Below, piece after piece: positions 17,458-25,190 of a DNA stretch of 64,000 nucleotides; the stretch's first letter is position 1; every line of letters starts with the position of its first letter. Below the pieces are notes generated by a model, which had not been told where the DNA came from, searched no databases, and saw only the letters and a program-made list of their open reading frames with translations. The DNA is from Deltaproteobacteria bacterium (GTDB lineage Bacteria > Desulfobacterota > Binatia > Binatales > Binataceae). The translations under genes and the position numbers were made by a program. The stretch lies in the NCBI GenBank assembly GCA_021831785.1, contig JAKBMB010000026.1, forward strand, positions 1 to 64,000, written 5' to 3'.

Positions 17458-18264
17458 CTAAAAGCCTAGCACGTCGCGTATCGAATAGAACCCCGGCTTT
17501 TGCGTCGCCAGCCAGCGCGCGGCGCGCAAAGCGCCCTGCGCGAACGAATCGCGGCTTTGCGACCTGTGTGTCAACTCCAAACGCTCGCCGCGGCCGCCGA
17601 ACAGCACCGTATGATCGCCGACGGCGTCGCCGGCACGAAGCGCCAGGATGGCGATCTTGTCTTTGGGCCGCTCCCCGATTAATCCTTCACGGCCAAAAAC
17701 AGCGCTGCCGCCGAGTTCGTGTCCACGCGCCTGCGCAACCGCCCGGCCCAGCGCGAGCGCCGTGCCGCTGGGCGCGTCAACCTTGAAACGATGATGCAGT
17801 TCGGTAATCTCAACGTCGAAGTCAGGCAGCGCGGCGGCGACCTCCGCGGCAAGCTTTATCAGCATGTTGACGCCAACGCTCATGTTGGGCGACGCCAGAG
17901 TGCGTGTCCTCGGCGCCAGGTCGCGCAGCCGGCGCTCCATCTGGGGCGTAAAGCCGGTGGCGCCGATAACCATCGCGGCGCCGCAATCGGCCGCGATCTC
18001 CAGATGCTCCAGCGCCGCCTGGGCGCTGCTGAAGTCAAGCGTGACGGTGTCGGGGCCGGCCAATTTTGCATAATCGGCGACAAGCGCAACCGAAAGCTTG
18101 CCGCATCCCGCAGTTTCGCCGGCGTCCGCGCCCAGCGCCGGATGGCCGGCCGCTTCGACGGCTCCAACCAAGTTCAGGGAGGAGTCCTGCGCGATTAGAC
18201 TTATCAGCGTGCGGCCCATACGGCCCGCAGCGCCGGCCACGATCAACTTAAGCTTCTCTGCCAC
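17458..18264 (-). CDS. dapB: 4-hydroxy-tetrahydrodipicolinate reductase
   Basis: DapB reduces 4-hydroxy-tetrahydrodipicolinate to tetrahydrodipicolinate with NAD(P)H in the lysine/diaminopimelate pathway. The 268-aa product has the nucleotide-binding GAAGRMGR (11-18), the family catalytic region ELHHRFKVDAPSGTAL with the conserved His-His and Lys, and the C-terminal GREGLIGERPKD and SRDSFAQGAL segments. The start is GTG at 18264, with GGGAG 8 nt upstream. A longer N-terminal extension would be atypical. No other dap gene is adjacent. Confidence 0.95.
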   Translation of the reverse strand: MAEKLKLIVAGAAGRMGRTLISLIAQDSSLNLVGAVEAAGHPALGADAGETAGCGKLSVALVADYAKLAGPDTVTLDFSSAQAALEHLEIAADCGAAMVIGATGFTPQMERRLRDLAPRTRTLASPNMSVGVNMLIKLAAEVAAALPDFDVEITELHHRFKVDAPSGTALALGRAVAQARGHELGGSAVFGREGLIGERPKDKIAILALRAGDAVGDHTVLFGGRGERLELTHRSQSRDSFAQGALRAARWLATQKPGFYSIRDVLGF

Positions 18265-18339
18265 GCGCTCGACTCCCTGGCACGATGCGACTCTGATGAA
18301 TAGCAGGCCCTTGTGCCGGCGCGTCAAGCGCGCCTCGGG

Positions 18340-19581: not shown

Positions 19582-22500
19582 TTATGGCCGGGCGGCCGAT
19601 ACCGGGGCGAGAAACGGCAGCGGGATAGTCACAGCATTGTACAGTGCCAGACGCGGTCCGTAAGCTGCCTCGAAAAAACCGATGCCGGTGGAAGGGCGAA
19701 TCAGATTGGTGCGATCAAACATGTTGATCAGAGTGATTTGATCTTGGGCTTGGCCCACGCCTGGAATATAAAAGCTACGTCCGATACCCAGGTTCAACCA
19801 CCACCAGATGGGAAGTTGCATCGTATTGGCAAAGCCACCGCGATAGCCGCTGCTGAAAACTCCGTCCACGCTGAACAGATATTTCCCCCAGCGATAGACC
19901 ACGCCGCCGGAAGCTCCGAAAAGCGGCTCATGGTCAAGAATAATGTAATGGTCGGCCATGTAAGCGAGCTCGGCGGCGTTAAAGTTGTACTGACCGCTCG
20001 CCACGCCCATTTCCTCGTCGCGCGCCGCCGTGAAATTGAGCCTGAGCGTCAGGTCTTCGCGATTGTAGGCCAGCGTCTGCTCAAAGCCCCATCCGTAGCC
20101 GTGCTCATAGTTAAACGGTATATAAATCGGGACGAAGCCAAATTGCCCCTCATCTAAGTAATGCTGTGAGAGGCGAAAGTAGCTGTCCTGGCCCAGAGTC
20201 AGAGTAGGCGTCAGATGGTTCACCACGCCAGCGTCCCAATAATAGTCGCGCTCGGGCAAGGGAAAGGGATTACCGACTTCGCTAAGCGCCCCGGTCGTGC
20301 CGGCGAATTTCTGAAAGCTCACCGGTGAGAGGCCCGCGAAGGGCGGCACCTGGAAATAGCGCGCAAAGCCGGCATGCACGGCGGTGACCGTCGTCGCTTG
20401 ATAGAGCAGATTCACGTCCGGGCTTATCTGATTACCCTGGACAAAACCCAGCGCCTGGTCAAAACGCGCCCCATAGGTGGCGCGCAGCTTCTCGGTAATC
20501 TGCCAGGTATCCTGCACATACACGCCGAGCAACGTGTCGGCTCCCTGGAATTGACCCGCGATCGCCAGCGGCACGTTGCTCGTCTGCTGCCCCTGGCTGT
20601 TGACCGGGAAGACCAGCGAATAGTTATTGAACCCTATGTTGTAGCGGCCTGCGTAAAAACCGAAACCCAGCGTATGGGTGTCGGTTAGCTGGTAGGTCGC
20701 GTCGCCCTGAAGCGTATTGGCAAGGTCCGTGTGGCTCACCCGCGAGGCGACGCCCTGGTAGATCATGTCGCCGATCGGGTCGGGCGTAAAAAGCTGGGTG
20801 TTATAATGGCCGCCGTAAGCAAGCTGGTAAGAGAAAGCCGGACCGATCGTACCGGTCAGTGCTAGCACACCAAAGTAGTCATTCTGCTCAAGCCCTGAGT
20901 TGATCATAGTGGAGGGATAGGTCGCCGGGTTCACACCCGCCAAGCTGTAGAGCACAGGCTGGTTCGGTACGTTGGGGAACTGATTGTTCAGCACGGCCAC
21001 CCCGGTGATGAGGCTCAAGCGGGCGCTGGAGCTCAGGTCGTAGGTGAAATAGCCGAAGCCCTGTCCCTGATTGGTGTAGTCGTGAATCGGCGTGGCATTA
21101 GGGGTGGCCGAATCCAGCCCCAGGTTGGAGTATTGGTAGTAGCCGGTCACATAATAGCTTAGCTTGCCTTTGCATCCCGCCCACTCAAAGCTCGGCTCTG
21201 CCGTCTCGCGCATTCCGCCGTAAGCCGTGAACACTCCGATCGGCTGGTCGCAGCCGTCTTTGGTGCGGATGTCGATCACGGCTGAATCGCGATAGCCGTA
21301 TTGGGCCGGCAAAATTCCGTCCAAAAGGCTTACGCTGCGAATCAGCCGCGAGTTAAGAAACTGAGCGAACCCAGGTTCGGTAGTAATATCGAGCGGCAGC
21401 ATGAGGCCATTGATCCGCCACTGAAAGTCGGCATGCTCGCCGCGCACGTGGAATTGGCCATCAAGATCGCGGGCCACGCCAGGCATCTGAGACAACACGC
21501 CGGTCATCGTGGTGTTATTGCCTGCCGGAAGCTCATTGATATCGCGTTCGGTAAGGGTGTACTGACTCGCCCCGGTTGAAGAGAGTCTTACCTGGGAGGG
21601 CAGGCGCGACGCCTTAATCGGCACGCTTAGCGGCTGCTCGGACTCAAGCGTAAGCGTAATTGGCTTCGCAGGCGCAGAGCCGCCCACCTTCACAATGATG
21701 ATTGCGGGCTTAAAGCCGCTCTTGCGTCCGACGACGGCGAACACCCCGGGCATCACCCGATCCAAAGTGAAGTCACCGCGCTCGTCGCTTTCGGCTCGCG
21801 CGACCAGTTTTTGATCCGCGCGCTTGAGCTCTATTTGAACGCCGGGCAGGGCCCGTTTGAGCGCGTCCGTGGCATGTCCGCGCACGCTGAAAACCGTACG
21901 ACGTTCCCCATCCGCCAAGGCAGGGTGGCGCGCCAGCAGCGTGAGCAAAGCGGTCGAAACGCCGATTATGGCACGGCGCGTGATAGCGCGCCCCCGACGC
22001 AGCAGCTTGAGATAGCGTTGGCGGCTAAAAAGCCATGCCGCCATGATAACCACGGTGGCCAAAACGCCCACCTGCGCGGAACTTACCTGATCCAGCGCCT
22101 GATAGAACGACCCTCTAAGGTGAAGTCCCCCGACAAGTAGCTTTAACCATTCGCTGCCCGCAACAAAAAGCGCAAGCCCTGCGGACAAGCCGGTTAGCAA
22201 AAGGTTAAAGCGAAGCTTGCGCACAGCGTCCGCGAATGTCCAATCGTAAATACTCATCACCAGGATGCCATCGAGCGTATCAACCAGGCTCATCCCGGCG
22301 GTAAACAGCAGCGGAAATACCATCACGCCCCAGAGCGGAAGTCCGCCTTGGAGGGCGGCTGCGGTCGACAGGCCGAGGATCGCAATCTCGCTGGCGGTAT
22401 CGAAACTAAGGCCGAACAGCAGGCCGATCGGATACATCTTCCAGCCTGCGTCGACGCGGCGATAAAGCAAGCGAAACAGACGCGCCGCCCCACCCCGCTG

Positions 22501-23064
22501 GTCCAGCAGCTTTTCGATGGCCTCGCCGGACACATCCGTAGACGGGTCGCGGCGCAGGACGTCGACCGCCGCCCACAAGCACCGGAAGATACCGATGTTG
22601 ATGATGCCGATCACGGTGAGAAAACCCGCGGAGCAGAGCGCGCCCGCCGCACTATGGAGCCCGAACTGCAACCAGCGTTCGGCGCTGGCGCTCGACCGTG
22701 CCGCGAGCACCGCGATCAAAGAGAGCAGCACTACGACAGTCGAGTGCCCGAGCGCAAAAAAGAGGCCGGTCGACGTCGGCCGCTTTCCGTCCTGGCGAAG
22801 CTTACGGGTTACGTTGTCGATCGCCGCGATGTGGTCGGCGTCGAAACCGTGGCGCAGCCCCAGAAAGTACGCCAATGTTCCGGCGCCGAGGACAGCGCCG
22901 CCGCCAACAGATGTCAGCGCCGCGAGCGAAAGCCATGCCGCGCCATTCACGCCGCCCAGCACGATCAACGGCGCGGCGCCCGGCCGGCAGAATCTCGGCC
23001 ATCCGGTCCGCATAGCGGCGGACAGCGCATTCTTCGGCTGCAAAGAAAATGCAGGTCGATTCAT
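19582..23064 (-). CDS. Fusion of NiCoT nickel/cobalt permease and TonB-dependent receptor
   Basis: One uninterrupted frame of 1160 aa joins two normally separate proteins. Residues 1 to about 350 are a NiCoT (HoxN/NixA) inner-membrane permease: signature HGFDADHI at 72-79, LGHSTVV near 105, GLSFDTASE at 218-226 and LLFTAGMSLVDTLDG at 252-266, with about eight membrane segments. Residues about 357-384 (RAITRRAIIG... to PALA|D) look like a signal peptide. A carboxypeptidase-like regulatory domain follows (about 388-475), then a TonB plug (about 500-600) and an outer-membrane barrel to the end. The cobalamin riboswitch upstream suggests cobalt rather than nickel as cargo. Inference: signal peptidase may cut the chain into permease and receptor. 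Internal initiation, for example at M341, is an alternative. Confidence 0.88.
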   Translation of the reverse strand: MNRPAFSLQPKNALSAAMRTGWPRFCRPGAAPLIVLGGVNGAAWLSLAALTSVGGGAVLGAGTLAYFLGLRHGFDADHIAAIDNVTRKLRQDGKRPTSTGLFFALGHSTVVVLLSLIAVLAARSSASAERWLQFGLHSAAGALCSAGFLTVIGIINIGIFRCLWAAVDVLRRDPSTDVSGEAIEKLLDQRGGAARLFRLLYRRVDAGWKMYPIGLLFGLSFDTASEIAILGLSTAAALQGGLPLWGVMVFPLLFTAGMSLVDTLDGILVMSIYDWTFADAVRKLRFNLLLTGLSAGLALFVAGSEWLKLLVGGLHLRGSFYQALDQVSSAQVGVLATVVIMAAWLFSRQRYLKLLRRGRAITRRAIIGVSTALLTLLARHPALADGERRTVFSVRGHATDALKRALPGVQIELKRADQKLVARAESDERGDFTLDRVMPGVFAVVGRKSGFKPAIIIVKVGGSAPAKPITLTLESEQPLSVPIKASRLPSQVRLSSTGASQYTLTERDINELPAGNNTTMTGVLSQMPGVARDLDGQFHVRGEHADFQWRINGLMLPLDITTEPGFAQFLNSRLIRSVSLLDGILPAQYGYRDSAVIDIRTKDGCDQPIGVFTAYGGMRETAEPSFEWAGCKGKLSYYVTGYYQYSNLGLDSATPNATPIHDYTNQGQGFGYFTYDLSSSARLSLITGVAVLNNQFPNVPNQPVLYSLAGVNPATYPSTMINSGLEQNDYFGVLALTGTIGPAFSYQLAYGGHYNTQLFTPDPIGDMIYQGVASRVSHTDLANTLQGDATYQLTDTHTLGFGFYAGRYNIGFNNYSLVFPVNSQGQQTSNVPLAIAGQFQGADTLLGVYVQDTWQITEKLRATYGARFDQALGFVQGNQISPDVNLLYQATTVTAVHAGFARYFQVPPFAGLSPVSFQKFAGTTGALSEVGNPFPLPERDYYWDAGVVNHLTPTLTLGQDSYFRLSQHYLDEGQFGFVPIYIPFNYEHGYGWGFEQTLAYNREDLTLRLNFTAARDEEMGVASGQYNFNAAELAYMADHYIILDHEPLFGASGGVVYRWGKYLFSVDGVFSSGYRGGFANTMQLPIWWWLNLGIGRSFYIPGVGQAQDQITLINMFDRTNLIRPSTGIGFFEAAYGPRLALYNAVTIPLPFLAPVSAARP

Positions 23065-23102: not shown

Positions 23103-23198
23103 ACGGTTTCGGCGGGCGGGCCCAGCATTCCCTAATTCCATCGCAAGCAGGCGCACGGCCGCCGAATCCACTCTCCCCACGAACAAGCAGACCCCGAT

Positions 23199-23351
23199 GA
23201 GTCGCTCGGCCGGTCTCCTGGCTTGGGATTCCTCCTAGAGGCCGAGCCTCCCCAGTTGCCCAGTGGCGCCATCGGCCTTCGCGCTCCCTCACAGTTGCGG
23301 GGCAGCGCCGGATTCGCACCGGCTTCCCGAGCGCCGAGCAGCGAGCGACTC
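23199..23351 (-). promoter_or_regulatory. Cobalamin (B12) riboswitch
   Basis: The 153-nt minus-strand element begins and ends with a perfect 10-bp P1 stem (23342-23351 with 23199-23208). In order it shows the cobalamin aptamer blocks: AAGCCGGTGCGAATCCGGC, then GCTGCCCCGCAACTGTGAG, then GCCACTGGGCAACTGGG (the B12 box region), and CCAAGCCAGGAGACC near the 3' end. Such riboswitches shut off B12 or cobalt uptake genes when adenosylcobalamin is abundant. It lies 135 nt upstream of the ATG of the permease-receptor fusion. Confidence 0.95.
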
Positions 23352-23372
23352 TAGCATCGCCTTTGCTGCTCG

Positions 23373-24475: not shown

Positions 24476-24924
24476 CTATGAGCTGGCACATGGCCCCGAG
24501 CACGTTGCGACCTCTTGGGCCGCCGGCTCGCTAAGCCTGATCCTTTCGACGATCTCCGGCGGTTCACATCCGACAATGAAAACCCGCCCGATGCGCCCGC
24601 CTAAGGCGCTGACCATGTTCAACACCGAGCGCGGGGCCATGCCGTGAACGTCCACCAGGAATCCGTGCTCTTCCTCGTTCAAGTCCACCTCTAGGACGAA
24701 GACAGTTTCGGGAGCGTCGCCGCAAGCCGTAGCGTTGACGGGAATCAAAGTGTCGCGGCCGTCGAGCCGCTCGTACGCCAGATGGATGGCGCGGATGCCG
24801 GAGTCTCTAACCTCCACGCCCGCTGGGAGACCCTGCGCGGCCAGTCACCTGGCCGCCTCAACGCCGAGACCGTCATCGCCGAAAAAATGTTGCCGACGCC
24901 GGCCACTAAGACCATGTGGCTCAT
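24476..24924 (-). pseudogene. Broken hydrogenase maturation protease
   Basis: A HyaD/HycI-type endopeptidase would cleave the C-terminal tail of the hydrogenase large subunit. The gene starts at 24924 with MSHMVLVAGVGNIF, the family opening. It loses frame in a run of six A's (plus strand 24882-24887). The next frame gives FGDDGLGVEAAR, with the Ni-binding Asp region, then a TGA at 24845-24847 where family members usually have Trp. The same frame continues after it (VEVRDSGIRAIHLAYERLDG, LVDVHGM, VFIVGCEPPEIVER) to the normal end at 24476. With two lesions it is not functional. Confidence 0.85.
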
Positions 24925-25020
24925 TTGCCCCGGCCCCAAGCGGTTCGACTTCGTCGGGATAGAAGTGTAAGAAACGCCGATGCCATTGATAGAGCTCGGC
25001 GGCGGAATCGTCCTCGACTG

Positions 25021-25190
25021 TCACTTCACAAAGATACTGTAGCCGCGGAAGATCGATAACGTGCTGTAGCGCTGCGCCACTTTCCTCTTCGCGAAGTCGA
25101 TTTTGGGATATATTCCCCACGCTCCCCACGATGCGGGTGATGGGGTCCCAAATCATCTCGACCAATCCCTTGGCCGTGTTGGTCCCTGGT
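25021..25190 (-). pseudogene. N-terminal fragment of [NiFe]-hydrogenase large subunit
   Basis: The minus strand encodes GLVEMIWDPITRIVGS, the conserved N-terminal motif of hydrogenase large subunits. After a one-base frame change it continues GIYPKIDFAKRKVAQ, then STLSIFRGYSIFVK and a stop at 25021. The family normally continues for another 450-550 residues and includes both CxxC nickel sites. Here none remain, because the maturation protease region follows directly. The wording of the motifs fits the group 1h (high-affinity, H2-scavenging) type best. Confidence 0.8.

Follow-up and report, generated by a model that had tools for sequence, protein, structure and literature searches.

A NiCoT permease and a TonB-dependent receptor in one reading frame behind a cobalamin riboswitch: a candidate two-membrane cobalt-uptake polyprotein in the Binataceae

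Permeases of the nickel/cobalt transporter (NiCoT) family (TC 2.A.52), recognised by the signature HX4DH, are inner-membrane proteins with a cytoplasmic C-terminus. In the cytochrome b/c1 polyprotein FbcH of Bradyrhizobium, an internal signal peptide links a polytopic inner-membrane protein to an exported one, which signal peptidase cuts free, and both products stay in the inner membrane. In Novosphingobium aromaticivorans, an adenosylcobalamin riboswitch is followed by a receptor and then by NiCoT and CobW, according to a 2021 review, which adds that confirmation was lacking for any cobalt-specific outer-membrane receptor (PMC7689651). Here we describe a locus in which these elements come together in another way: in a stretch of 64,000 nucleotides (the window; contig JAKBMB010000026.1, assembly GCA_021831785.1, a member of the Binataceae), a single open frame behind a cobalamin riboswitch encodes a NiCoT permease and, after it, a TonB-dependent receptor.

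On plasmids of Novosphingobium sp. ES2-1 and P6W, found among five regions opened from the matches in a plasmid collection, a riboswitch, a TonB-dependent receptor and a NiCoT are encoded as separate genes, and in ES2-1 cobW and cobN follow the NiCoT. The present locus resembles these operons in having a cobalamin riboswitch upstream of both proteins, whereas they consist of two genes with the receptor first and the fusion is one gene with the permease first. The ES2-1 receptor has no significant BLASTP similarity to that of the window, so the receptor-permease pair would have formed more than once; neither the ES2-1 nor the P6W receptor has a CarboxypepD_reg match. The pair is not universal either, because a plasmid of Sphingomonas parapaucimobilis carries a riboswitch, NiCoT, cobW and cobN with no adjoining receptor. 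As for homologues of the receptor, one in Paraburkholderia adjoins a Fur-family regulator and zinc genes, which is consistent with a metal-related receptor family, and one in Bradyrhizobium adjoins exbB/exbD without metal genes. A literature search of titles and the beginnings of abstracts found no fusion between an inner-membrane permease and an outer-membrane receptor, and we know of no described transporter with both in one chain. A first reading of this DNA, made from the sequence only, knew of no transporter described in this form; the pairing as such is known, in the shape of separate genes. What is new, it seems, is the fused form of a functional pair that is known and seems to have arisen more than once.

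The fusion gene lies at 19582..23064 on the minus strand and has 1160 codons, exactly the position and length given in the sequence-only reading, and the Pfam domains bear out its description as one frame with NiCoT motifs followed by a TonB-dependent receptor (Table 1). NicO (PF03824) matches with 226.9 bits against a cut-off of 27.7 and covers profile positions 2-284 of 287, the motifs HGFDADHI and LLFTAGMSLVDTLDG are both found, and H72, D77, H78 and F221-D222-T223-A224 are invariant across all 19 aligned NiCoT rows. In NCBIfam, the permease half is nearest to the HoxN/HupN/NixA transporters, with which it shares the NicO domain, the HX4DH signature and a nearly full-length match; it differs from them in an additional C-terminal receptor of about 775 residues and in its TIGR00802 score of 285.6 bits, under the curated cut-off of 333.05. 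That cut-off was reached by no match, fused or unfused, in a phylum scan that drew 395 genomes, 8 of them with a TIGR00802 match. The receptor half spans residues 393-1160, and its CarboxypepD_reg and barrel matches, like that of NicO, exceed their cut-offs, in agreement with the claim that halves proper to the inner and the outer membrane are encoded in one polypeptide. In a sequence search of the PDB, the receptor half weakly matched the colicin I receptor (E 1.7e-7), and the NiCoT half had no match. The same genome holds stand-alone relatives of both halves, four of the receptor (45-54% identity) and two of the permease (43-48%). These receptors are homologous to the fused one over most of its length and, like it, have a signal-peptide-like stretch before the CarboxypepD_reg region; theirs is N-terminal, whereas that of the fusion is internal.

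Table 1. Features of the fusion locus; positions are those of the window.
Feature	Coordinates	Strand	Basis and remarks
NiCoT-TonB-dependent receptor fusion gene	19582..23064	-	1160 aa, ATG start, stop included
NiCoT permease domain (NicO, residues 59-347)	22024..22890	-	Pfam, 226.9 bits; same span in the class scan
Positively charged loop after last NiCoT helix, residues 348-364	21973..22023	-	read from sequence; 8 positive, 0 negative
Internal signal-peptide-like segment, residues 360-384, predicted cut after A384 (ALA|D)	21913..21987	-	sequence comparison; cleavage inferred
CarboxypepD_reg domain of receptor, residues 393-464	21673..21888	-	Pfam, 36.1 bits, cut-off 32.3
TonB-dependent receptor beta-barrel match (PF00593, TonB_dep_Rec_b-barrel), residues 658-1094	19783..21093	-	Pfam, 39.8 bits, cut-off 27
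Cobalamin (B12) riboswitch aptamer, RF00174, full-length match	23191..23353	-	89.7 bits, gathering 31.5; 126 bases to start codon
Downstream neighbour, syntenic in all three fusion loci (context, not part of transporter)	17458..18327	-	matches in L037/L194/L008 and in L098

At the junction, residues 348-384 read RQRYLKLLRRGRAITRR-AIIGVSTALLTLLARHP-ALA|D without a stop or a change of frame, the hydrophobic stretch that ends in ALA|D following on the charged loop. The equivalent junctions of two relatives, described below, read RALTRRVVLGVSTALVTLLSRQPALA|E and RALTRRVIIGLTTAIVTLITRQPAFG|D. The closest unfused NiCoT (genome G009, 61% identity) has its C-terminus at the equivalent of residue 359, the point from which the extra segment extends, and in an alignment on the CarboxypepD_reg region this segment falls at the position of the signal peptides of stand-alone homologues. 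By a home-made score, which combines hydrophobic core and cleavage motif and involves no trained predictor, the three fusions obtain 4.78, 4.60 and 3.71, values inside the range of 28 stand-alone homologues (mean 4.76, standard deviation 0.90, minimum 2.47); the lowest of the fusion scores, 3.71, is attained by 2.2% of 7000 random barrel stretches. The set of 28 had been cleared of repeated loci (L037, L038, L103, L104, L111), of L035 with its broken frame, and of loci whose match stops short of the domain start (e.g. L027, L028). In charge, position and score the junction is consistent with the signal-peptide-like stretch ending ALA|D that had been proposed. If the C-terminus of this NiCoT is cytoplasmic, as in the family and as the charges suggest, the segment would be correctly oriented for an internal signal peptide. 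The genome has two Peptidase_S26 matches (173.3 and 59.5 bits), and the cut would fall to ordinary signal peptidase; the earlier term self-processing is dropped, there being no sign of autoproteolysis.

Among 57 genomes searched, that of the window (G000) included, the fusion was found in two further species. In G001, of the same genus, it has 81% identity and a frame of 1165 codons. In G015, of another genus in the same family, the frame runs off the contig end after 735 codons and the remainder opens another contig, with the last 100 bases of the first contig recurring 7 bases into the second; this split looks like an assembly break. The two sequences match public records JAJYYI010000024.1 (FK3.bin99) and JAJPIL010000010.1 (Centralia_MAG_33), respectively, and two of the three genomes that carry the fusion are, to judge by their titles, metagenome assemblies. 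Identity to the window is 66-69% for the NiCoT halves and 79-85% for the receptor halves. One open frame thus crosses the junction in three species (1160, 1165 and at least 735 codons). A sequencing error, a hidden stop and an assembly error, of which the first two had been singled out as what might undo the sequence-only reading, are ruled out by this uninterrupted frame in three species of two genera, and by the recurrence in two further species of the same fusion together with the same downstream gene (putatively dapB). The related worry, that relatives would have two separate genes and only this assembly a fused one, is answered by the same homologues.

Both halves of the fusion are under purifying selection. 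Between G000 and G001, the ratio of nonsynonymous to synonymous substitution (dN/dS), obtained by a simple counting method, stands at 0.13 in NiCoT, 0.18 in the junction, 0.16 in CarboxypepD_reg, 0.035 in the plug region and 0.055 in the barrel; the 39 codons ahead of NiCoT are saturated. For the G000-G015 pair, the junction gives 0.76, a value from a stretch of 32 codons that neither favours nor rules out constraint.

The gene is preceded by a cobalamin riboswitch in the window and likewise in G015 (59.2 bits). That of G001 (104.6 bits) is followed by an unfused NiCoT (L037:5785-6876) and, about 0.5 kb later, by the fusion (L037:7368-10862), so that two NiCoTs share one riboswitch unit. A scan of the class (148 genomes) gave 15 HoxN-type NiCoTs above 100 bits in nine genomes. 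Six of them lie in riboswitch units (G000, G001 twice, G003, G009 and G015), four of these six being fused to an outer-membrane protein, counts that are not independent since the four fusions represent two events. None of eight others (L101, L102, L105-L110) has a riboswitch in the surroundings scanned or is fused; this riboswitch scan covered fourteen of the fifteen, the last being a fragment in G025 at the end of a contig. No riboswitch was found at 20 loci of stand-alone receptors, with flanks of only about 1.5 kb and with L003-L005, L023, L027, L028 and L033-L036 left out of the scan, and no cobalamin riboswitch occurs in the stretch examined around the NiCoTs that stand beside a urease-linked RNA family (L039, L073). 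The riboswitch, which the sequence-only reading had overlooked, strengthens its proposal that cobalt is the likely cargo.

A second fusion of this kind was found in a related genus. In G003 (L100:3112-5745, plus strand), a frame of 878 codons joins a riboswitch-controlled NiCoT (residues 98-378) to an OprB porin (476-876; 130.7 bits, cut-off 22.9), with a signal-peptide-like stretch ending NCLA|SEG between the two. From residue 375 onward there is no in-frame start except TTG 429, within the hydrophobic part. Stand-alone OprB relatives (L240-L244, 59-68% identity) have signal-peptide-like stretches upstream of the domain, and a further one (L245, 54%) has none in the part examined. A tree of the NiCoTs places the three receptor fusions in a clade of their own (100/99) and unites the OprB fusion, known from one genome, with the unfused NiCoT of G001 (100/100); because they are on separate branches, the two kinds of fusion arose separately. 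This suggests that such fusion took place on at least two occasions within one bacterial family, each time in NiCoTs linked to a B12 riboswitch. As a separate observation on the porins, two OprB-type frames from different genera, L242 (G033) and L243 (G017), both have 626 aa, 606.7 bits and an identical N-terminal stretch as examined, a likeness that may reflect recent transfer or contamination.

Taken together, the locus probably encodes a polyprotein for B12-repressed uptake of cobalt, and possibly also of nickel, made as one precursor that the signal peptidase of the cell would split. Its topology, cleavage and destination, transport, the direction of control and the metal are inferred along the following lines. 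When adenosylcobalamin is scarce, the riboswitch would permit expression of the 1160-aa chain, whose NiCoT half would enter the inner membrane and leave its C-terminus on the cytoplasmic side. The charged loop and the hydrophobic segment after it would next serve as an internal signal peptide, routing the remaining chain through Sec. Signal peptidase would cut after ALA, the freed receptor would be assembled in the outer membrane, and the permease would retain the former signal peptide as an additional C-terminal helix. In this way a single start codon would supply the cell with equal numbers of the two components, outer- and inner-membrane, that handle one scarce metal. FbcH is the nearest mechanistic precedent, by analogy and not by homology, and differs in that the second product here would reach the outer membrane.

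Several observations weigh against this proposal. The cleavage motif of G015, A-F-G, is weaker than ALA, and the hydrophobic cores of the fusions (h10 1.90-2.08) lie under the stand-alone mean of 2.56 (standard deviation 0.48). The Plug model (PF07715) has no match at E <= 0.01 in the fusions of the window, G001 or G015; in the one stand-alone receptor whose domains were checked with Pfam, a paralogue 54% identical to the receptor half, a Plug domain is above the cut-off (26.8 bits, cut-off 23.9). AlphaFold gave the whole chain a mean predicted local distance difference test score (pLDDT) of 49.9, with blocks of 59-95 (residues 31-370) and 60-83 (401-470) and most of the barrel under 50, so that the receptor fold is without structural confirmation; the poor model is explained by the receptor being covered by three rows only. 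In addition, the unfused NiCoT in the G001 riboswitch unit and another unfused, riboswitch-controlled one in G009 indicate that fusion is not needed for function. Finally, metal specificity is not readable from NiCoT sequence identity, as the same review states (PMC7689651).

The number of starts separates the proposed precursor from a mere overlap of reading frames, in which the receptor would be made mainly from an in-frame start near the junction. Candidates exist: in G000, residues 332-341 include in-frame GTG, TTG, GTG and ATG codons; G001 offers ATG, TTG and GTG; and a TTG within the hydrophobic stretch is common to both. However, no in-frame ATG, GTG or TTG at the junction is common to all three species, and in G015 there is none over residues 375-444 of its frame, from just ahead of the last NiCoT helix to beyond the predicted cut, which makes separate initiation of the receptor unlikely. 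By eye, no well-spaced Shine-Dalgarno motif precedes the candidates, and with a start at ATG341 the receptor would be preceded by two hydrophobic segments. Although a non-standard start (for example AUU or CUG) could still serve, we regard internal initiation as improbable on the whole, and single initiation as the simplest reading of these codons. If the single chain is made, it might never be cut and might form a permanent bridge in which CarboxypepD_reg and linkers connect the inner-membrane permease to the outer-membrane barrel. The order of domains would permit this (8 residues lead from A384 to the CarboxypepD_reg match, followed by the domain and a linker), and the weaker cleavage motif in G015 points the same way. 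Against it, two of the three fusions have an AXA site and the third has A-X-G, in the region that holds the site of stand-alone receptors; the linkers, by estimate, are short relative to the periplasm's width, and we are not aware of any tethered barrel that is assembled in the outer membrane. Such an uncut bridge is very unlikely, and just as unlikely is its functional counterpart, a whole chain in which the outer-membrane receptor hands metal directly to the joined permease.

The same anatomy and processing could also serve nickel alone or a cobamide. NiCoTs carry nickel too, and a frame like a hydrogenase maturation protease lies nearby (window 24476-24817; HycI 19.3 bits, under the cut-off of 23); for a cobamide speak other receptors of the family, BtuB-like by eye, that stand behind B12 riboswitches among the matches listed. 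Control by a B12 riboswitch and the parallel with cobW and cobN in Novosphingobium argue for cobalt instead, and cobamide import fits poorly with a NiCoT partner, so that we consider either cargo quite unlikely. That the gene is degenerate or a non-functional read-through is scarcely credible: all three species have other copies of NiCoT and receptor, and the fused copy could be spare, yet it is conserved in both genera, its domains have dN/dS values of 0.035-0.16 (G000-G001), it has no stop, and its downstream neighbour and riboswitch are conserved too.

As to how widely the fusion occurs, a peptide-pattern scan of genome contigs gave 61 loci, with both halves in one frame only in L037 and L038, and no NiCoT-receptor fusion beyond the three species appeared in the peptide-pattern, class or phylum scans. 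At no single place in the plasmid collection is 80% of the fusion protein covered. Among 19 other NicO frames of more than 500 aa in the class scan, which belong to distant subfamilies, ten were checked with Pfam (L134 and L137 being cut by the end of the stretch, and the other nine frames outside the check); these ten have NicO at the C-terminal side and no outer-membrane domain at E <= 0.001. Since the scans beyond the class were samples or relied on peptide patterns, the receptor fusion may exist elsewhere.

Some further observations concern the surroundings of riboswitches and of the locus. In G009 (L099:3-5972), the riboswitch-controlled stand-alone NiCoT is directly followed by frames that by eye are TolC-, HlyD-type- and RND-efflux-like, an odd partner for uptake. 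A conserved protein of unknown function of about 200-220 aa (MGEEALQKSSGTETIEHLDG... in G024) stands directly behind cobalamin riboswitches at L185, L190 and L213 (G024, G020 and G006, respectively). Low-scoring cobalamin riboswitch matches (35.5-54.8 bits, cut-off 31.5) occur upstream of proteins that are TonB-like by eye (L222-L229, L231, L232), which suggests possible B12 control of the energiser. At window 24476-25165, on the minus strand, the HycI-like frame is accompanied by a short frame without a Pfam match that, by a sequence motif, resembles the start of a NiFe hydrogenase large subunit; the two are possibly hydrogenase remnants.

Processing as proposed would mean that an internal signal peptide can start the export of a long outer-membrane barrel where a polytopic membrane protein ends, and it would tie two steps in the uptake of cobalt to a fixed ratio. 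The receptor encoded at this locus is also a candidate for a cobalt-specific outer-membrane receptor.

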